From: Dehalogenimonas sp. 4OHTPN
GTDB lineage: Bacteria > Chloroflexota > Dehalococcoidia > Dehalococcoidales > Dehalococcoidaceae
Assembly: GCF_040448695.1 (NCBI RefSeq)
Contig: NZ_CP159307.1
Coordinates: 1,364,001-1,428,000 of the forward strand
DNA length: 64,000 nt
Reading direction: 5' to 3'
In this document: piece after piece, positions 28,233 to 63,597 of the stretch
Numbering within the stretch: the stretch's first letter is position 1
Layout of the letters: each line of letters begins with the position of its first letter
Notes under the pieces: generated by a model
Told to the model about the DNA's origin: nothing
Database searches by the model: none
Seen by the model: only the letters and a program-made list of their open reading frames with translations
Program-made: the position numbers and the translations under genes

Positions 28233-28334
28233 CGTTACCTTCAGTCCGGCGCACCATGAAGGGGACTGCCATCGATCCTGATTGACCGGTATTAATACTC
28301 TGTGTTACCATGAGCCTAATTAAATATTGATCTC

Positions 28335-28480
28335 CGAAGTCTTGGAGCCTAACTCCCCGGTGATATGGCGACAAGACCGGCGGTCCTTCACAGAAGGGCC
28401 CGAGGGTGATGCCGGAAACGGCGCCGCCTCCCGCGATTTGGAAAGGAGAGCATGCCATGACGAGGGTACTCCGCGGCCGC
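28335..28480 (+). ncRNA. Moco/Tuco-type riboswitch candidate
   Basis: The leader of the tungstate transport operon holds a structured region that resembles the Moco RNA motif: an 8-bp hairpin (GGTCCTTC at 28382 with GAAGGGCC at 28393), then GAGGGTGATGCCGG, a GCCG-GAAA-CGGC hairpin with GNRA tetraloop (28411-28422), and CATGCCATGACGAGG near the 3' end. Moco/Tuco RNAs sense molybdenum or tungsten cofactor. Position right ahead of tupABC and an intrinsic terminator at 28481 supports a transcriptional off-switch. I assign the class by resemblance; a covariance-model search would settle it. Confidence 0.6.
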
Positions 28481-55210: not shown

Positions 55211-55999
55211 TTGTTTTACATCAAACCGAATCCGACGACCGTTTATCACGTTGCCTACGCACCTGCCATTGAAAAAGCCTACCTCTTTCACTGGGGCTGC
55301 AATCTTAAGTGCCGCGGCTGCCTGTGCAATAAAGAAATCAACTGCATGGCCCTCGAGGAAAACCTTGACGTAGTCCTGCGCGACCCAAGATTACCAAAGC
55401 CGCAAAACCCGTCACAGTATCTTGACCTCGACGAAGTCATCACCACGCTCAGGAAGGTCGCGGTCAAAGAGGTCCTTTTCGAAGGGCAAGAAGCCTCGAT
55501 CGACCCGGCCTACGGCGCCATCACCGAGGCGCTGAAGGCTGAATTCGGTTGCTACATTACCCTTAACACCAATGGCGTGAAACTCCCTGACCTTTCCCAC
55601 ACCGACGAGGTGGTAATGAGCCTCAAGGCGGTAACACCGGAGCTGTACCGCTATTACACCCTACATTCAAATGATCGGGTACTGCGCAACTTCGTCGAAG
55701 TTTATCGCCTGGGTAAGAAACTGCGGGCTGAAAGCGTCTTCATACCGGGTCTCATAGATCTGGAAGAGACGGAGAAAATTGCCGGATTCATTGCCGGGGT
55801 TGATTCGAAAATCCCTTATCGCATCGATGCCTATTTCGAGTCCGGAGCTGAAAATCCCTGGCGAAGGGCGACGCCGGAAGAGATGGCACAGGCGGTAACC
55901 GTCGCCAAGAAGCATCTAGCAAACGTTACCTGCACCCAACAGACGGCAGCCAAACTGGAGAAGAAAGACCTGATGTATGAAGTCATCAGGCTTTACTAA
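55211..55999 (+). CDS. Radical SAM protein in corrinoid salvage operon
   Basis: A 262-residue radical SAM protein with the cluster motif GCNLKCRGCLC near residue 30; the loop that usually reads GGEP is EGQEAS near 96. Substrate is unknown. It is the first gene of an operon under a cobalamin riboswitch, ahead of cbiZ with a gap of 10 bases, so a corrinoid-related step (for example lower-ligand or side-chain chemistry) is a reasonable guess. The TTG start has GAGGGGAA before it. It is not similar enough by eye to BzaF/ThiC-type enzymes to claim lower-ligand synthesis. Confidence 0.78.
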   Translation: MFYIKPNPTTVYHVAYAPAIEKAYLFHWGCNLKCRGCLCNKEINCMALEENLDVVLRDPRLPKPQNPSQYLDLDEVITTLRKVAVKEVLFEGQEASIDPAYGAITEALKAEFGCYITLNTNGVKLPDLSHTDEVVMSLKAVTPELYRYYTLHSNDRVLRNFVEVYRLGKKLRAESVFIPGLIDLEETEKIAGFIAGVDSKIPYRIDAYFESGAENPWRRATPEEMAQAVTVAKKHLANVTCTQQTAAKLEKKDLMYEVIRLY

Positions 56000-56009
56000 G
56001 AGGTCATTA

Positions 56010-56771
56010 ATGGTATACCACAAAAAGCTAGATCGAAAATCAATCAGCTCATGTCACGGAATAAACATTGATGTTGTCTATCACAACGCCGTAGGTGTCC
56101 CTACCGACACCCTGGTCATCACTCTGCCTGAGCAGCGACCGATGCTGACGACCCGGCATGGCTATAAGGCAACGGACGTCATCTGCAACTGCCACGTACC
56201 AAAGGAACTCTGGGATTTTATGCATGATGAATCCCGCTGCTGGCAGGAGACTTACGGTCAGATCATGGCTGAAGTCCTGACTGAAGCTAATCGGTCGATC
56301 GAAGACATCGCGTTCTTGTCTACCGGCATCAAGCAGGAGCGAGTGGCCGTGGCCGAAGAAGTTTACGATGAGTTTTGGGTATTGGCAGTGACTACCGCGG
56401 GTGTCAAGACCAATGCCATGCGGGTGGGCGTCGACAAAGCATCGGGCGTTGAGCGTAACGGCAAGTTCGAGAAGATCGGCACGATTAACAACATTATCCT
56501 GACGAACGCCATCCTCGAAGCCCCGGCGCTGGCCTCATCCTTCATCACTATCACTGAAGCTAAAAATATCGCCCTGCAAGAGCTTGATATCCGCAGCGCT
56601 TACGCGCCGTCGCTGCTGGCCACCGGTACCGGCACCGACCAGATCATCGTGGCATCGGGTCTCGAGCACAAGTACACCTACGTCGGCGGTCATACCAAAC
56701 TGGGGGAGATGATAGCTCAGGCGGTTACCAAGTCCACCATCCAGGCGATAAGGAATTCCAGAGGTTTCTGA
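56010..56771 (+). CDS. cbiZ: Adenosylcobinamide amidohydrolase
   Basis: CbiZ cuts the aminopropanol side chain from adenosylcobinamide and from some cobamides to give adenosylcobyric acid, which lets cells remodel scavenged corrinoids. The 253-residue protein has the family segments STGIKQERVAVAEEV near residue 100, VTTAGVKTNAMRVG near 128, and NIILTNAILEAPALAS near 160. The ATG at 56010 with AGAGGT six bases upstream is preferred to the longer frame. The gene belongs to the riboswitch-controlled operon. Dehalococcoides carries several cbiZ copies near dehalogenases. Confidence 0.92.
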   Translation: MVYHKKLDRKSISSCHGINIDVVYHNAVGVPTDTLVITLPEQRPMLTTRHGYKATDVICNCHVPKELWDFMHDESRCWQETYGQIMAEVLTEANRSIEDIAFLSTGIKQERVAVAEEVYDEFWVLAVTTAGVKTNAMRVGVDKASGVERNGKFEKIGTINNIILTNAILEAPALASSFITITEAKNIALQELDIRSAYAPSLLATGTGTDQIIVASGLEHKYTYVGGHTKLGEMIAQAVTKSTIQAIRNSRGF

Positions 56772-56772
56772 A

Positions 56773-57705
56773 GTGGATCTCATCCTGATGTTGCTGCTCG
56801 CCCTGGCGATCGACCTCACTATCGGCGAGTACCCCACGGCTTTCCACCCAACGGTGTGGTCTGGACGCCTGGCTGGGGCACTGATTCAGCCTGGGTTAAA
56901 GCTGCCGTGGAGTCTTCAACTCATCTACGGGATAGCGATAAGCCTTTCGATCATCACCCTGTTCACAGTCTCAGCCTGGCTTATACTCGGATTCCTGATG
57001 GGAATCGACCACTGGCTCTTTGTCTTTACCGGGGCGCTCATCCTCAAACCGGCCTTCTGCCTGGCCCAGCAGTGGCGGGTGGCGCGGAAGACCCGGGCAG
57101 TGGTTGAATCTGAGGCCCCGGTGCCTCCGGGGATGGAGGGTCTTTTCAACACTGTGAATTACAACCAGCCGGCTACCCGGGGTGAGATCGCCTCGGCCAG
57201 TATTCGCTCCATTGCTGAGAACGCGTCGGATTTTGTAACCGCACCGCTTTTCTATTTTGTGTTCCTCGGCGTACCGGGTGCGGTTGCATATCGCGTCATC
57301 AACACACTGGACAATATGATCGGCTACCGCGGCAAGTTTGAATACCTGGGTAAGTTCGCCGCGCGCCTCGACGATGTCGTTTCCTTTATTCCGGCCAGAA
57401 TCACCGCTTTGTTGTTTGTCGCCTCAGCCGGGCTGAGACGGGCAGGTGCCAGCCAGGCTTGGCGGACAATGATAGCCGACCACGGCCTGACACCAGGACC
57501 CAATGGCGGCTGGCCGATGGCTGCGGCTGCTGGAGCTCTGGGGGTCAAATTATATAAAACCGGGCATTACGAGCTAGGTAGTTCATTCGTTGAGCCACCA
57601 ATCGACAAGATCACCGAAGCTGTCAGCCTATACCGTTTAAGCATGTTCACTTGGATCGGCGTCTGTCTGATGGCACTGGCAGTGGCTGCCGCATTGCGAG
57701 GATGA
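56773..57705 (+). CDS. cbiB: Adenosylcobinamide-phosphate synthase
   Basis: CbiB (CobD in aerobic nomenclature) joins aminopropanol (phosphate) to adenosylcobyric acid, the step that follows CbiZ in remodelling. The 310-residue membrane protein has the expected hydrophobic helices and the conserved stretches AIDLTIGEYPTAFHP at the N-terminus, ASIRSIAENASDFVTAPLFY near 140, RVINTLDNMIGYR near 175 and AAAGALGVKLYKTGHYELG near 250. The GTG start follows cbiZ with one base between. Confidence 0.92.
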   Translation: MDLILMLLLALAIDLTIGEYPTAFHPTVWSGRLAGALIQPGLKLPWSLQLIYGIAISLSIITLFTVSAWLILGFLMGIDHWLFVFTGALILKPAFCLAQQWRVARKTRAVVESEAPVPPGMEGLFNTVNYNQPATRGEIASASIRSIAENASDFVTAPLFYFVFLGVPGAVAYRVINTLDNMIGYRGKFEYLGKFAARLDDVVSFIPARITALLFVASAGLRRAGASQAWRTMIADHGLTPGPNGGWPMAAAAGALGVKLYKTGHYELGSSFVEPPIDKITEAVSLYRLSMFTWIGVCLMALAVAAALRG

Positions 57706-57706
57706 G

Positions 57707-58228
57707 ATGATAACTAAGGGCATGGTCCATTTATTCACCGGCGAAGGCCGCGGCAAAACATCGGCCGCCCTTGGCACGGCAATACGTGCAGCCGGTTATG
57801 GGTTGAAAGTATTCGTTCTCTTCTTTATGAAGGGCATACATCCAGGGGGTGAATATTCCTCGTTCCAAACATTAGGTGTTGATTTCAAAGTCTTCGGCCG
57901 GCCGGATTTCTACGGGCCGTCAGATATCAGGGATGAAGACCTGAAACTGGGCAGAGAAGCCTTGAAAGCTTCTGTCGACGCTATAACTGGCGGCCGGTAT
58001 GATCTGGTGGTGCTTGACGAAATCAATACGGCGGCTGCCTGGAACCTCATTGAAACGGCTGATGTCCTGAAATTAATCGATAGTAAACCGCCAGGCGTTG
58101 AACTGATCCTGACTGGCCGTTATGCCTCTCAGCTAATTATTGACAAGGCTGATTATGCCACCGAACTGGTGAGCACGAAGCACCCCTTCGACCGTGGCGC
58201 GCCTGCGCGGGAAGGAATCGATTACTAG
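57707..58228 (+). CDS. cobA: Cob(I)alamin adenosyltransferase, CobA type
   Basis: Adds the adenosyl group to reduced corrinoids, needed before CbiZ and CbiB can act. The 173-residue protein has the P-loop TGEGRGKTSAALG near residue 11 that binds ATP in the unusual CobA orientation, VLFFMKGIHPGGEY near 42, VVLDEINTAA near 104, and ELILTGRYAS near 130. It begins one base after cbiB and its stop overlaps the next start (TAGTG). Confidence 0.93.
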   Translation: MITKGMVHLFTGEGRGKTSAALGTAIRAAGYGLKVFVLFFMKGIHPGGEYSSFQTLGVDFKVFGRPDFYGPSDIRDEDLKLGREALKASVDAITGGRYDLVVLDEINTAAAWNLIETADVLKLIDSKPPGVELILTGRYASQLIIDKADYATELVSTKHPFDRGAPAREGIDY

Positions 58229-58998
58229 TGAAAGTCGCCTTTTTCCATATCGAGCCGAAACCAGGCCAGATCGAGGCCAACCGCCACTTGTATGAGCGGC
58301 TGATCTCAGCAAGTGCCGTACTGGGGACGCGCTGGATACTTACTCCCGAGCTCGGTATCTCAGGGTATTACTTCACCGATATCATCGGCACCAACTGGAT
58401 CAAACCCCAGCCTGATGAATGGATGAACAAAATCAAGCTCGAAAGCCGCAGGCTTGATCTAACCATCTTCTTATCTCACCCTGAGCGGGACAAGAAAACC
58501 GGCAAGTTCCACAACACTTTATTCGCGATCGATAAAGGCAGAATCGCTGGCCGTCACCGCAAGATAGAGGTCCATCCGGGCGCCGAAGAAGCCTGGTCCT
58601 CTCCCGGTGATAGCCTGAAACCCTTCGCTATCGACGGTGCAAGAATCGGGATGCTGATCTGTGCTGATACCTGGGACACTCACCACGGACTTGAACTCCA
58701 AAAAAAGGCTGCTGAGCTACTGGTCGTCAGTGCTGCCTGGGGTCAGAAATACCCGCCGCTGGAAAACTGGAAAACCCTGTCGCTATCTACCGGACTACCG
58801 GTATGGGTCTGCAACAGAACAGGCCAGGAACGTAATGTCGACTGGACTCAGGCTGAAAGCATGGTCCTGGCGAAAGGCCAGCCGGTGCTCAGATACTCCG
58901 GCAAGCCGGCGTTGCTGGTCTTCGACTGGGATTTCGAAAGGATGTCGCCTGTATCAGCCGAGTTTACCGTCATACCCGTTGATGGAAGGGAGATCTGA
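58228..58998 (+). CDS. Nitrilase-superfamily (carbon-nitrogen) hydrolase
   Basis: A 256-residue CN-hydrolase. The Glu-Lys-Cys triad can be placed: Glu in ILTPELGISGYY near residue 42, Lys in GRHRKIEVHPG near 113, Cys in GMLICADTWDT near 150. The family hydrolyses or condenses amides and nitriles. Co-translation with cobA and position in the riboswitch operon suggest an amide of a corrinoid side chain or a lower-ligand precursor as substrate; this is inference. Start is GTG. Confidence 0.82.
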   Translation: MKVAFFHIEPKPGQIEANRHLYERLISASAVLGTRWILTPELGISGYYFTDIIGTNWIKPQPDEWMNKIKLESRRLDLTIFLSHPERDKKTGKFHNTLFAIDKGRIAGRHRKIEVHPGAEEAWSSPGDSLKPFAIDGARIGMLICADTWDTHHGLELQKKAAELLVVSAAWGQKYPPLENWKTLSLSTGLPVWVCNRTGQERNVDWTQAESMVLAKGQPVLRYSGKPALLVFDWDFERMSPVSAEFTVIPVDGREI

Positions 58999-59000
58999 CC

Positions 59001-60779
59001 ATGGTCATCGATACCAGATCAATGCCCATCTATTTAGACAAACCGGCTCTAACACCCAATGCTAAACTGGTCTTGGAAAAGCGCTACCTGCGCCGGGATG
59101 AAAATGGTGAAATTATTGAAACACCAGACGAGATGTTTTGGCAGGTAGCCCGGGCAGCAGCTTCTGTCGAACAACACTACGACCCTCAGGCAGATATTGA
59201 GACTGTTGCATCTGAATTCTACGAAATCATGGCGGGACTGCTCTTCCTGCCCAATTCGCCTGCCCTTTTAAACGCCGGTACCGGTCGAGGGCAAATGGCT
59301 GGCTCGATGGTGCTGCCGGTCGAAGACTCGCTGGATTCCATTTTCGATGCCGTAAAAAATGCCGCCATTATCCACCAGCGTGGTAGCGGGATCGGTTTCG
59401 ACTTCTCGAGCATCCGACCCAGAGGTGACCGGGCAGGCAGTCGGCCTGATGCCGCCATCGGACCAGTAGCCTTGATCGAGGTATTTTCCAGGGTGACCCA
59501 GAATATCCGCCAGGGCGGTATCCGCCGCGGCTGCAATGCCGTCTCGTTGGGCATCGACCACCCGGATATTATTGAATTCATCAGGGCCAAAGCTGACCAG
59601 TCATCCTTAAGCAACTTCTATACCTGCATTGCCATCACTGATGATTTCATGCAAAGAGTGAAGCAAGGATTGGATTATCCCTTGATCCATCCCCGTACCC
59701 AGAGCGTTAGCAGGTGGCTGAATGCTAGAGAGGTGTTCGACCAGATCGTCGACCAGGCCTGGCGTAATGGTGAGCCGGGCTTTATCTTCCTCGACCGGAT
59801 CAACCGTGACAACCCCACCCCACAACTAGGGACTCTTCATCATGTCAGCGGCTGTGGTGAACAGCCGCTACTACCCAACGAATTTGCCCACCTCGGCTCC
59901 GTCAACCTTTCCCGAATCGTGAAATCTGATGGGGATCAAACATATATCGACTTCAAACTGCTGGCCAGTGTCGTCGGCACAGCGGTGAGGTTTCTGGATA
60001 ATCTCATTGATTTAACAGGCTATCCGACGAATGAGAGCATGCTCGCTACCAAACGGACCCGGAAGATCGGCCTCGGGGTGATGGGCTTTGCCGATATGCT
60101 GTTCCAATTGGAGATCGCCTACAACTCCGAACAGGCGCTCGATATAGCAAGAGAGGTGATGAGCTTCATCCAGCGGCAGGCGCTTGATGCCTCTATCGAG
60201 CTTGGCCAGAAGCGGGGGCCATACCCGGCTTTCCATGGTGGCGGGAAACCAATCCGTAACGCCTCGCGTACTACCATTGCACCAACTGGCACCATATCGC
60301 TGATAGCTGGTTGCACTTCGAGCATCGAACCGGTTTTCGCTACTGTCTTTATCAGGAACGCTTTCAAAGGTGAACACCAGATGCTGGATATCAATCCCCA
60401 TTTCGAAAAGGCGGCGCGCCAGGCTGGGGTCTTTACTTCAGACCTCATCGAGCGCCTTGTCAGGTGTAACCACCTGCAACAGCAACCGGATGTACCTGAG
60501 GAATTGAAACGCATCTTCGTCACGGCTCACCGGGTCAGCCCCGAGTGGCATATCAAAATGCAGGCGGCTTTCCAGGAGTTTACTGATGCTGCCGTCTCTA
60601 AAACAGTCAACTTGCCTCATAATGCTGATAGAGAAGAACTTGGTATTATCTTCATGCAAGCATATGATATTGGGCTCAAGGGTATTACAGCCTACCGTGA
60701 CCAGAGCCGGTCATCTCAGCCCTTCTGCACTGGCGATATCGGCATTAGTCTGGTCCGGGAATATATGAATTGTAGGTAA
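59001..60779 (+). CDS. Class II (AdoCbl) ribonucleotide reductase-like protein with altered active site
   Basis: The 592-residue protein follows class II RNR throughout: FLPNSPALLNAGTG near residue 87, the GSGIGFDFSSIRPRGD segment near 130, PEFIFLD-like GEPGFIFLDRINRDNP near 258, PTGTISLIAG near 430, and AVSKTVNLPHNA near 533. The thiyl-radical Cys is kept (GCGEQPLLP, Cys285). However, the first reductant Cys is Ser102 (AGSMVLP instead of SACFVLP), the second is Ala296 (NEFAHLGS instead of YESCNLGS), and the substrate-binding Asn two residues before Cys285 is Ser283. It lies last in the corrinoid operon. Either an RNR with another electron source, a new radical reaction, or an inactive copy. 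Confidence 0.85.
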   Translation: MVIDTRSMPIYLDKPALTPNAKLVLEKRYLRRDENGEIIETPDEMFWQVARAAASVEQHYDPQADIETVASEFYEIMAGLLFLPNSPALLNAGTGRGQMAGSMVLPVEDSLDSIFDAVKNAAIIHQRGSGIGFDFSSIRPRGDRAGSRPDAAIGPVALIEVFSRVTQNIRQGGIRRGCNAVSLGIDHPDIIEFIRAKADQSSLSNFYTCIAITDDFMQRVKQGLDYPLIHPRTQSVSRWLNAREVFDQIVDQAWRNGEPGFIFLDRINRDNPTPQLGTLHHVSGCGEQPLLPNEFAHLGSVNLSRIVKSDGDQTYIDFKLLASVVGTAVRFLDNLIDLTGYPTNESMLATKRTRKIGLGVMGFADMLFQLEIAYNSEQALDIAREVMSFIQRQALDASIELGQKRGPYPAFHGGGKPIRNASRTTIAPTGTISLIAGCTSSIEPVFATVFIRNAFKGEHQMLDINPHFEKAARQAGVFTSDLIERLVRCNHLQQQPDVPEELKRIFVTAHRVSPEWHIKMQAAFQEFTDAAVSKTVNLPHNADREELGIIFMQAYDIGLKGITAYRDQSRSSQPFCTGDIGISLVREYMNCR

Positions 60780-60817
60780 ACGGGAGAGTTTATGCCCAAC
60801 CCAAACGTTAGGAGCGA

Positions 60818-60885
60818 AGTTGATTGGTTTAAGTCTCAAAGATCAAAGCCGCGCTTTTAAGATACCTTGTGTTAACCAATCAACT
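60818..60885. repeat. Inverted repeat after the RNR-like gene
   Basis: AGTTGATTGGTT at 60818 and AACCAATCAACT at 60874 are exact complements with a 44-base middle. It lies between converging genes and has no T-run. Could be an old insertion end or weak terminator. Confidence 0.45.
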
Positions 60886-60926
60886 AAGAGTCGCGTTCCA
60901 GAGAGAGTCCGACCCGACAAGGATGA

Positions 60927-61739
60927 CTAAGGTTTTCTTCTTGAGTACTTTATGAAATCAGGTAATGCCATTAAAGCTCGAAAAAAGCGCTCAGGTCGCT
61001 CGGCTGAATAACATTTCCCCGTAATCCTACCCGGCTTCACGCTACACATTTCTAATGCCACTTTTTGTACCCGTTCTATAGGGGTAGCAAAAGCTTTCAA
61101 CAGCACCGACATTAGTCCCATTTTGGAATCAGTTTCGGGACAGGTCTTTACATCCTTGTAGATGTCCGTCTCAACCATGCCTGGAAATAGGCAGTTTATT
61201 GATATCGGCTTATCCTTGTTCTCAGCAGCCAGGCTCTTCGTAAGACTTGTAATCGCAGCTTTACTCGCACCGTATGGGGATTGGAAAGGACTGGGATTCC
61301 CACGTCCCCCACGCCCACCTATGTTAATGATCGTTCCTCCCCCACTTGATATGAAGTATGGGATTAATAGCCTGCAGGCATAGAAAGAACCCATCAAGTT
61401 GGTATCAATGACTTCTCTTATCTCGTCGGTGGTCATAGACTGAAGAGTTCGATAGCCGCCAGATATCCCTGCATTATTTATCCACACGTCGATTTTCCCG
61501 AAGGCTAATTTGCTACTCTCGAACAGCCCTAAAATTTCAGCCTCGTTTGTGACATCTGCTTGGAAAGCCCGAACGGAAAAGCCGCTTTGGTATAGCTCTT
61601 CGACCGTCTTCGAAAGAAGGGTGAAATCTCTTGAACATAGAACTACGTTAGCTCCGGCAGCCGCACAAGCTTCCGCAATTGCACGTCCAATACCCCGGCT
61701 GGATCCGGTGACGACTACTGTTTTGTCTTTGAGTGTCAT
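60927..61739 (-). CDS. Short-chain dehydrogenase/reductase in the island
   Basis: A 270-residue SDR: TGSSRGIGRA near residue 11, NNAGISGG near 88, catalytic Tyr-Lys in SPYGASKAA near 158. The usual catalytic Ser region reads INIGGRGGRG, with Gly where Ser is common, so activity may be altered. The frame is open further upstream, but MTLKDKTVVVTG at 61739 with AGAGGAC nine bases before it is the clear start. Flanked by dehalogenase and corrinoid genes; role unknown. Confidence 0.8.
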   Translation of the reverse strand: MTLKDKTVVVTGSSRGIGRAIAEACAAAGANVVLCSRDFTLLSKTVEELYQSGFSVRAFQADVTNEAEILGLFESSKLAFGKIDVWINNAGISGGYRTLQSMTTDEIREVIDTNLMGSFYACRLLIPYFISSGGGTIINIGGRGGRGNPSPFQSPYGASKAAITSLTKSLAAENKDKPISINCLFPGMVETDIYKDVKTCPETDSKMGLMSVLLKAFATPIERVQKVALEMCSVKPGRITGKCYSAERPERFFRALMALPDFIKYSRRKP

Positions 61740-61823
61740 TATGATTGAGTCCTCTAATCTAGTGATATTCGGAGTTAACTCTATCACAAGCTCTGTTTTT
61801 GTATAAGATCCCATGTCAGACCG

Positions 61824-61860
61824 AAATGAACGAGGGGCTTTTTCAGCCCCTCGTTCATTT
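61824..61860. terminator. Terminator-like hairpin similar to that of rdhA2
   Basis: AAATGAACGAGGGGCT pairs with AGCCCCTCGTTCATTT (16 bp) around TTTTC. The core matches the rdhA2 terminator at 52399. It lies in the 324-base region between the SDR start and the rdhA4 stop, which has no gene. Confidence 0.7.
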
Positions 61861-61878
61861 CCCGAGAGATCCATTCCA

Positions 61879-61934
61879 AGATATCCATTGTTTCAGAGAG
61901 AGACGGACTCTTTGAGGAGGACGAACTGAGATGG
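61879..61934 (+). ncRNA. Hairpin element, copy 2
   Basis: Shares with copy 1 (50584-50641) the blocks AGATATC, ATTGTTTCAG, GACTCT and GAGGACGAAC in the same order and similar spacing. GTTTCAG can pair with CTGAGAT, with an inner CTC/GAG helix. As in copy 1, a terminator follows within ten bases. Confidence 0.5.
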
Positions 61935-61940
61935 CTTAAT

Positions 61941-61976
61941 AACACCCGAGGGACTTTGAATGTCCCTCGGGTGTTT
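61941..61976 (+). terminator. Terminator after hairpin element copy 2
   Basis: AACACCCGAGGGA pairs with TCCCTCGGGTGTT across a nine-base loop, with TT directly after on the plus strand. The orientation matches a short plus-strand transcript that includes the hairpin element. Confidence 0.75.
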
Positions 61977-62014
61977 TCGCCGGCTGAGACCAGGTGATTG
62001 AAAAAAGAGGGACA

Positions 62015-62050
62015 GGAACAGTGGCTGAAATTGATTTCAACCACTGTTCC
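62015..62050. terminator. Hairpin at the end of rdhA4
   Basis: GGAACAGTGG and CCACTGTTCC enclose a further TGAAAT/ATTTCA helix, so nearly the whole 36 bases fold. It lies 14 bases after the rdhA4 stop on the minus strand. TTTT follows on the plus strand only, so its direction is ambiguous. Confidence 0.7.
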
Positions 62051-62063
62051 TTTTGCATATATC

Positions 62064-63584
62064 CTACCGATATGCCCCGTGGCGGGAAAGGACATTAGAG
62101 TCCTGTCCATAGAATGGCAACTCGAGATCCCACCATGACTCAGGATCTTTCTGTCCATACTCGAAAGTCTCAGCCATACTGAATAGAAAACCGTTAAAAA
62201 GGGGAGTGGTAGCTATGGTACTTTTCACTACGTCGTGAATCATAGCGCCATGATTTACCGTAAAAGTGCATTCACCCCAGCATATGTTGCAACTGCTTCC
62301 ACTTTCAGAAGCCCAGAGACTGCAACCAGGACCGTTCATGATAAAGGCCTTGGTCCCTTGCACGGTCCAAATCGCCGCTTTCCCATTAACAGTTGGACGT
62401 TCCCAAGAAGGCTCTTTTTCGAAAGATATCACTTCAGCAGGGCAGTTATTTGCACATTTCTGGCAGGTATGGCAGAAGCGGAAAATACCTGCGTCTATTG
62501 GTTTGTTTGGCGCCAGCGGCAGATCAGTTACAAAATCATATAAACGGCCAGGAGCACCATATTCAGGGGAAATTGTATAGAGTTGTTGGCGACTTGCCTC
62601 CCCAAGTCCGTTCAATATCGCACCAGCCCCACCAGCGAAGAAATGGGTCGCGTCTTGATTGGGTGTTGCGTTACCAACTACTCCGATCTTCTGATAGCCT
62701 ATCATGCGCAGAAAGTTTTGAGTACAAGCGTTGATATTGCCGACATTCATAAAAGTATTGCGATTCGCAAAACCGCCCCAAGCCGGGGAGCGGCGGAATA
62801 ATTCATTCGACCCTTGGGTCGAAACACTCACTTCCCACATTTCTTTATTGGGGATGACTAGCTTTGTAGAAGTCTCATAACCTGTGTCAACATTCTCGTA
62901 CACGATTGGACGAGCAACACTTTCGGGAGGCGGCCATTTGTCAATGTAGCTGTTGCTGTTAGCTCCGCCTTTCTCGTAGGAAAACACAGCCTTGTTTCTG
63001 ATTTCGCTTGTGAACTCACCATATCCTACTAAAGAGGCGCCATACACCCTCATTGCAGCCCTGAGCATCTTTGAAGCTTCCTCCGGTGTTCCGGTCCATT
63101 TGGGGACACCAAGTTGTTCAGGGGTTTTCGTCGGAGCCAAATTGAATTCACCAGCCCAACCGAAATCACCAGGCTTCCGTTGGATTGTATTCGTCGTCGT
63201 CGCGCCGGCGTACAATGCATCATCTCGCAAACGATAACCAGATTGGTTGGCATCTTGGCGAGCTTTTTGTAAGGGAGCTCCCACCGCATTGGCATTAACC
63301 ACTCGGTCTTTCCCATAGTATTGAGCCTTTGTGTAACCTGCTTGACCCTGAAGACGGCCGTCATGACGCTTCATCATGTCCCAGTCAATCTCGATCGTGG
63401 GATGATCAAACTCCCTCTCTTTGACATACCATGGCCGTTTCCAGCTTGCGTCAGAAGATCCAATTAACTCGTCCATATCATGGAATACTGGTGTAACCAA
63501 AGAAGCGCCACCGATGCCAGCACCTAAGAGCCCAATGGCTTTCATGAACTCTCTTCTACTTACAACGCTATGAAACCTGGACAT
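62064..63584 (-). CDS. rdhA: Reductive dehalogenase catalytic subunit (rdhA4)
   Basis: A 506-residue RdhA with Tat motif SRREFMKA at residues 9-16 and complete ferredoxin motifs: CHTCQKCANNCP, then Cys followed ten residues later by CNICWGEC. PWYVKERE and the FNGFLFSMAETFEYG end region show kinship to rdhA1 and rdhA2. AGAGGA lies seven bases before the ATG. No rdhB follows. An IS3-family element ends immediately upstream of the ribosome-binding site, so the natural promoter has been displaced and expression may depend on the insertion. Confidence 0.94.
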   Translation of the reverse strand: MSRFHSVVSRREFMKAIGLLGAGIGGASLVTPVFHDMDELIGSSDASWKRPWYVKEREFDHPTIEIDWDMMKRHDGRLQGQAGYTKAQYYGKDRVVNANAVGAPLQKARQDANQSGYRLRDDALYAGATTTNTIQRKPGDFGWAGEFNLAPTKTPEQLGVPKWTGTPEEASKMLRAAMRVYGASLVGYGEFTSEIRNKAVFSYEKGGANSNSYIDKWPPPESVARPIVYENVDTGYETSTKLVIPNKEMWEVSVSTQGSNELFRRSPAWGGFANRNTFMNVGNINACTQNFLRMIGYQKIGVVGNATPNQDATHFFAGGAGAILNGLGEASRQQLYTISPEYGAPGRLYDFVTDLPLAPNKPIDAGIFRFCHTCQKCANNCPAEVISFEKEPSWERPTVNGKAAIWTVQGTKAFIMNGPGCSLWASESGSSCNICWGECTFTVNHGAMIHDVVKSTIATTPLFNGFLFSMAETFEYGQKDPESWWDLELPFYGQDSNVLSRHGAYR

Positions 63585-63597
63585 TGTCTATTCCTCT

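Follow-up and report, generated by a model that had tools for sequence, protein, structure and literature searches.

The last gene of a cobamide operon in Dehalogenimonas sp. 4OHTPN, a bacterium that makes its living by degrading chlorinated compounds, encodes a 592-residue protein with the fold of the class II ribonucleotide reductase (RNR) NrdJ, here called RNR*. Judged by its residues, RNR* is very unlikely to be a ribonucleotide reductase. The gene occupies positions 59001-60779 of the forward strand of the window, by which we mean the whole 64,000-nucleotide stretch of DNA analysed here (C1:1364001-1428000, C1 being the single contig of the 1.75 Mb genome). The active-site Asn, the redox cysteine pair and the C-terminal cysteine tail have been lost, the thiyl-radical cysteine has been kept and the family shows signs of constraint, which together argue that RNR* works, but not as an RNR. 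It would probably still be an adenosylcobalamin (AdoCbl)-dependent thiyl-radical enzyme, and a function in the corrinoid and reductive dehalogenase (RdhA) pathway is somewhat favoured. The reading as a whole is that RNR* has been neofunctionalised into an AdoCbl/thiyl-radical enzyme that helps to supply corrinoid to reductive dehalogenases; it is put forward tentatively and with rather less than even confidence. To our knowledge, RNRs are regarded as catalysing a single reaction. The lineage studied here holds many RNR paralogues that miss RNR essentials and yet are constrained, often within organohalide-respiration and cobamide loci. If RNR* acts in corrinoid supply, this bears on how dehalogenases obtain their cofactor, a question of importance to bioremediation and to RdhA production in other hosts.

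Active-site residues, domains and fold of RNR*

The reading frame is uninterrupted, and its only Pfam matches are PF02867 and PF00317. Alignment with the ordinary NrdJ of the same genome and with T. maritima NrdJ places the thiyl-radical cysteine at Cys285 (59853-59855, forward strand, as for all residues given here; T. maritima C322, E. coli C439) and confirms the spacing given in the original prediction, the second redox position coming 11 residues later. The general base is present as Glu287 (59859-59861; E324 and E441). Three other residues are replaced: the active-site Asn (N320 and N437) by Ser283 (59847-59849), the first redox cysteine (C134 and C225) by Ser102 (59304-59306), and the second (C333 and C462) by Ala296 (59886-59888). 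Positions 102/283/296 read S/S/A in RNR*, as against C/N/C in 36/36 core NrdJ of the order, each of which also has C285 and E287 (RNR* numbering). Among 29 distant viral RNRs, N283, C285, E287 and C296 were found in 29/29 and C102 in 28, with one gap. Both comparisons uphold the retained cysteine and the three substitutions that had been proposed, and the implication that RNR* is incapable of normal NrdJ turnover is likewise supported.

The same positions were compared across 43 intact short relatives. None of them has the active-site Asn (26 have T, 11 S, 5 D and 1 C), the first redox Cys is found in 40 and the second in 32. Cys285 is present in 43/43 and Glu287 in 38/43, its position being Gly in all five members of a group named here the DPCGGQ clade. 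S86, which belongs to the substrate phosphate site, and the loop-2 residues Q171 and R175 are retained in 43/43, which suggests that a nucleotide may still be bound by the family. A further cysteine of loop 2, Cys178 (59532-59534), corresponds by alignment to T. maritima A210 and E. coli A301; this position is Cys in 43/43 short relatives and Ala in 36/36 core NrdJ.

Two features go beyond the original prediction, namely that RNR* is one of seven short paralogues in its genome and that it lacks the C-terminal cysteine tail, which is present together with a TSCPD domain in the 914-residue NrdJ of the same genome (C1:556017-558761), the ordinary nrdJ for which a search had been proposed as a check. 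E. coli RNR with a mutated active-site Asn is inactive. In the enzymes of E. coli, yeast and T. maritima, the Asn and the Glu both contact the 3'-OH of the substrate, according to Table 4 in the available part of PMC4728125. RNR* has the RNR barrel fold, the thiyl Cys (C285) and the catalytic Glu (E287) of NrdJ, and is without the active-site Asn, the redox Cys pair and the cysteine tail, in cis or as the separate subunit NrdJb. Its score against TIGR02504 (NrdJ_Z) is 595.9 bits for a cut-off of 399.95, so that annotation by this model would name it NrdJ. A working RNR that relies on alternative cysteines, on a tail supplied in trans or on formate would be in keeping with this score, with the Cys pair kept in most relatives and with the universal Cys178 of the set, and the tail subunit of a class II RNR can indeed be separate (NrdJb, available text of PMC4520616). 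Nevertheless, such an activity is very unlikely, since the Asn is missing in 43/43 relatives and no separate TSCPD tail protein was found, the genome's sole TSCPD match sitting in the ordinary NrdJ. Cys178 was considered as a substitute reductant, and this is weakened by the orientation of its E. coli equivalent, A301, whose side chain is directed away from the substrate (PMC8772380, in the text available). The formate-type nucleotide reduction raised by the original prediction did not hold up well either: class III RNR retains a second, electron- and proton-donating cysteine (available portion of PMC4390871) whose counterpart here is Ser102, which makes the analogy weak. In addition, RNR* has no NRDD domain and the genome gave no PF13597 match. 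The other option then named, a different radical reaction, fits best.

An AlphaFold2 model of RNR* (pLDDT 89, pTM 0.90) was built from an alignment of 32 rows, consisting of RNR* and 31 of 33 non-redundant proteins (L167, 988 aa, and L174, 903 aa, were left out; L, G and f numbers denote loci, genomes and families). Its closest solved structures are those of T. maritima NrdJ (1xje, 3o0o, 3o0q), and it superposes on the AdoCbl-bound 3o0o_A with a VIA Z of 46.9 (rmsd 1.9, 549 aligned). From fold and kinship we infer that RNR* would bind the cofactor, and AdoCbl use is plausible. As a separate observation, a 696-residue NrdJ with NPCGEQ in genome G042 (L099) has no cysteine-rich tail in its final 40 residues.

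Phylogeny, selection and distribution of the RNR* family

All 11 genomes drawn from the family have matches. The 43 intact short proteins were aligned with 43 full ones (36 core NrdJ and 7 of a second RNR type), leaving out one fragment, two broken genes, one partial record and an identical twin of RNR*; two short fragments of G005 stand outside the analysis. A tree of RNR homologues had been proposed as a check; in it, the short proteins, all 43 without the Asn and the NrdJ cysteine tail, are split from the full ones by a single branch (SH-aLRT 99). In a tree computed without the divergent L149 and rooted with viral NrdJ, whose rows are long-branched and do not form one clean outgroup, 24 chosen short rows form one clade, with support 99, that lies among the NrdJ of Dehalococcoidales. 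These trees show the RNR* family as one clade, apparently born inside the NrdJ of the order.

Loss of the redox cysteines came later, in some branches, including nine cobamide-operon copies (twin counted). The first is missing only in the window clade (the window gene, L047 and L048), and the second in the window gene and L047, in L050, L052 and L070 (Thr), in L150 (Ser) and in the five DPCGGQ members (Ala). This last clade (L062, L065, L072, L078 and L081) lies in cobamide operons, and its Asn, Glu, second redox Cys and APTGT loop are all altered, the thiyl Cys being retained. Of the 35 members that belong to neither the window clade nor the DPCGGQ clade, 31 keep both redox Cys. The two Cys-poor groups stand apart in the tree, implying two changes; the AU test of a single clade gave p = 0.053, and a separate origin is not secured.

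The genome of the window has eight PF02867 genes, the full NrdJ and the seven short ones, and the number of intact RNR* paralogues in one genome reaches nine, in G005. The twin, at C1:1467018-1468796, is identical to the RNR* gene and has partly different flanks. The identical DNA begins at 57.9 kb of the window at the latest and ends at 63.6 kb (57900-63596; twin near C1:1465900-1471600), covering part of CobA, a CN-hydrolase, RNR*, an SDR gene and RdhA, and upstream of it the two regions share 76-94% identity, which speaks for a recent duplication or gene conversion. Sequencing error or chance is an unlikely source of the substitutions and was rejected in view of this twin and of relatives with the same changes, among them L047 from another genome, 69% identical to RNR* and with S/S/S at positions 102/283/296.

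The family appears to be under purifying selection wherever this could be measured. Nei-Gojobori estimates were run on 17 pairs, nine of which gave a ratio, the others being saturated or nearly identical: dN/dS was 0.038-0.151 in six short pairs and 0.058-0.129 in three NrdJ pairs. When the window gene is compared with its relatives, dS proves to be saturated (pS 0.78-0.80, pN 0.21-0.27), so that no ratio is given and its constraint is read from pN lying well under pS. Decaying or hitchhiking copies carried by mobile rdhA islands would be consistent with transposase-like genes nearby (by eye), with the recent identical duplication and with two copies broken by stop codons, L057 (G007) and L058 (G004). 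However, this reading is hardly credible given dN/dS values like those of NrdJ, the invariant Cys178 and the adjacency of a radical SAM gene in distant families. L057 is the sole short copy of G007, which indicates that the RNR* function can be lost. Selenocysteine at the TGA of L057 was rejected by eye, since relatives have Trp there.

The motif [TSC]GC[GA]EQ...LG[ST], which is blind to the DPCGGQ clade and to more divergent copies, was found in 13/294 genomes of the class, which represent three genera. In a genome-contig collection (84,980 species per its description), a scan that may omit records close to the window's own genome matched seven stretches, three from Dehalococcoidia and four from Rokubacteria. 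The latter (L087, L089, L091 and L093) were set aside, as by eye they are ordinary NrdJ apparently interrupted by an intein at their catalytic cysteine (NPC|GEQ), which leaves the motif in Dehalococcoidia only. Phage origin was dismissed on 0 motif matches in viral contigs, and plasmid origin on 814 plasmid records that match the protein, every one at less than 60% identity. In a draw of 81 genomes of the order, rdhA was found in 9/9 RNR* carriers (families f1, f2, f16 and f27) and 19/72 others (Fisher p = 2.6e-5, a value that ignores kinship, with just four families independent). Carriers were picked by frame length and by the residues of second matches (E up to 1e-150), and their count may miss weaker copies and copies in many incomplete genomes.

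A 2026 survey of the genus (PMC13390414) describes, in the text available, the RNR family as expanded in strain NSZ-14 and contracted in strain W, under DNA replication, and places an RNR next to rdhAB in a drawing of 'DNA replication-associated' genes; that text makes no mention of residues absent from the RNR copies. Among the matches listed, no other literature on the RNR* family in these organisms was found: the available parts of PMC6113397 and PMC7733943 do not deal with it, and that of PMC9531940 gave no match for Chloroflexi or RNR-like.

Gene neighbourhoods and candidate roles

The original prediction had RNR* as the last gene in an operon of AdoCbl-making genes, and this is the case. 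The operon runs on the forward strand, with gaps of -22 to +3 nt, from a small radical SAM protein with weak similarity to glycyl-radical-enzyme activases (55211-55999) through a CbiZ-type adenosylcobinamide amidohydrolase (55977-56771, PF01955), the adenosylcobinamide-phosphate synthase CbiB/CobD (56773-57705; PF03186, and TIGR00380 above cut-off), the ATP:corrinoid adenosyltransferase CobA/CobO (57707-58228, PF02572) and a carbon-nitrogen hydrolase (58228-58998, PF00795) to RNR*. A reductive dehalogenase, RdhA (62064-63584, reverse strand, TIGR02486 above cut-off), lies 1.3 kb from RNR*; the genome has 37 TIGR02486 (RDH) matches, 32 of them over cut-off. A molybdenum cofactor riboswitch is present at 28320-28464 of the window (forward strand, above gathering score), and no cobalamin riboswitch reached gathering score in the 14 sources scanned.

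Within 3 kb and on the same strand of 44 RNR* places (twin and two broken copies included, gene-cluster names partly by eye), RdhA was found 19 times, radical SAM 19, PP-loop protein 12, CbiB 9 and CobA 8. Six of the seven RNR* copies in the window's own genome have RdhA within 3 kb, or 5/6 if the two identical copies are taken as one (chance 0.129, binomial 1.9e-4), and in Dehalogenimonas RdhA lies within 3 kb on either strand of 21/37 RNR* places, for a rough chance of 0.21 derived from the 52 rdhA of strain GP. RdhA is common in these genomes, and even the ordinary NrdJ is only 3.1 kb from an rdhA match. The eight copies that have a same-strand CobA within 3 kb (the window gene, its twin, L047, L048, L062, L072, L078 and L081), together with L065 beside CbiB, each lack at least one redox Cys and belong either to the window clade or to the DPCGGQ clade. 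L056 retains both, with a BtuF-type uptake system (by eye) and CbiB downstream on the same strand, so that Cys loss is not tied to every cobamide locus. At L013, L053, L061, L071 and L076 no RdhA or cobamide gene is near, and a PP-loop protein or ArsA ATPase is found instead. L077, L079 and L080 (putative Dehalococcoides), as well as L088 and L090, have the radical SAM gene, and RdhA was not found in the stretch.

A radical SAM gene of about 250 codons directly adjoins RNR* in 14 gene models (13 upstream, 1 downstream; L131 repeats L090), spanning Dehalococcoides and Dehalogenimonas (inferred genera) and families f2 and f27. Distances of RNR* and radical SAM proteins are correlated (Mantel r = 0.85, p = 2e-4, 11 adjacent pairs; r = 0.67, 16 pairs), a correlation to which shared species history contributes. 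The best matches of the partner are glycyl-radical-enzyme activase models, at no more than about 43 bits for cut-offs of 131 (NrdG2) or more. This small radical SAM family is expanded, with six members in 6.5 kb at L065:330-6781, and the members scanned pass no NCBIfam cut-off. The adjacency, the co-inheritance and the weak likeness to activases would suit a hybrid system whose protein radical comes from the radical SAM partner instead of AdoCbl, just as NrdG generates that of NrdD. Such a scheme is decidedly unlikely, considering how far these scores fall below the cut-offs, that by eye no glycyl motif in the tails distinguishes RNR* from NrdJ, and that the nearest fold is the B12-dependent NrdJ. 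A catalytically dead regulator of rdhA or cobamide genes that binds AdoCbl or dNTP is also quite unlikely. Response-regulator-like genes (by eye, within 3 kb on the same strand of 11/44 places) and rdhA adjoin copies, and catalytic residues have been lost stepwise, which speaks for a regulator; however, the thiyl Cys persists even in the most altered clade, and a pure binder would not need it.

The main rival, rather unlikely but the strongest of the alternatives, is that RNR* carries out redox-neutral radical chemistry on a nucleotide, in which thiyl abstraction of the 3'-H would be followed by dehydration or epimerisation, as in diol dehydratases, yielding a modified nucleotide with the help of radical SAM, PP-loop and B12-radical-SAM neighbours. 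It could account for the retention of S86, Q171 and R175 in every short relative and of Glu287 in most, for the weak matches of the radical SAM partners to viperin and MoaA models, and for the PP-loop protein near more than a quarter of the places. The PP-loop neighbour is a Dph6-like ATP pyrophosphatase, for example at L009:10303-11094 and in the cluster 4 loci. Against a nucleotide reaction stand the DPCGGQ clade, without the Glu and the APTGT phosphate loop, and the RdhA and cobamide context, which that reaction alone does not explain.

We favour corrinoid supply because the DPCGGQ clade has lost nucleotide-side residues and kept the thiyl Cys, and because of the cobamide and dehalogenase neighbours. 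RNR* would bind adenosylcobamide and cleave its Co-C bond, a thiyl radical would arise on Cys285, and this radical would drive a reaction without an electron pair from the enzyme. To judge from the neighbours, the reaction may serve corrinoid handling for reductive dehalogenases, together with the small activase-like radical SAM partner. CobA produces adenosyl-corrinoids, and dehalogenases use a cobamide lacking the adenosyl ligand. In its most specific version, the proposal is that RNR* strips the adenosyl group from the corrinoid. We consider it unlikely that dealkylation is itself the reaction, and the 31/35 members outside the two Cys-poor clades keep a redox Cys pair for which a pure dealkylase has no need. 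Equally doubtful is the idea that RNR* represents a functional class not seen before on the RNR fold, an adenosylcobamide-dependent thiyl-radical enzyme that leaves nucleotides unreduced and, with a dedicated radical SAM partner, would convert adenosyl-corrinoid to the form that dehalogenases take up; if true, it would be a bacterial answer to the removal of the adenosyl ligand.

Relation to known systems

NF005401 ('ribonucleotide reductase-like protein', PRK06948) resembles RNR* in being an RNR homologue model of about 600 aa, but RNR* scores 262 bits for a cut-off of 906. The split NrdJa/NrdJb of P. aeruginosa likewise has a catalytic protein without the cysteine tail (PMC4520616, in the part available), whereas in the RNR* genome the TSCPD tail protein was not found and in RNR* the Asn is also gone. 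Class III NrdD/NrdG shares with RNR* an activase-like radical SAM gene beside the enzyme gene and the want of a full redox pair; in contrast, RNR* has no NRDD domain and has Ser102 in place of the second Cys, and its partner is far below the activase cut-offs. T. maritima NrdJ matches RNR* in fold (Z about 47), thiyl Cys, Glu, and substrate phosphate and loop-2 residues, and RNR* differs from it by the loss of the Asn, the redox pair and the C-terminal cysteine domain and by the additional Cys178.
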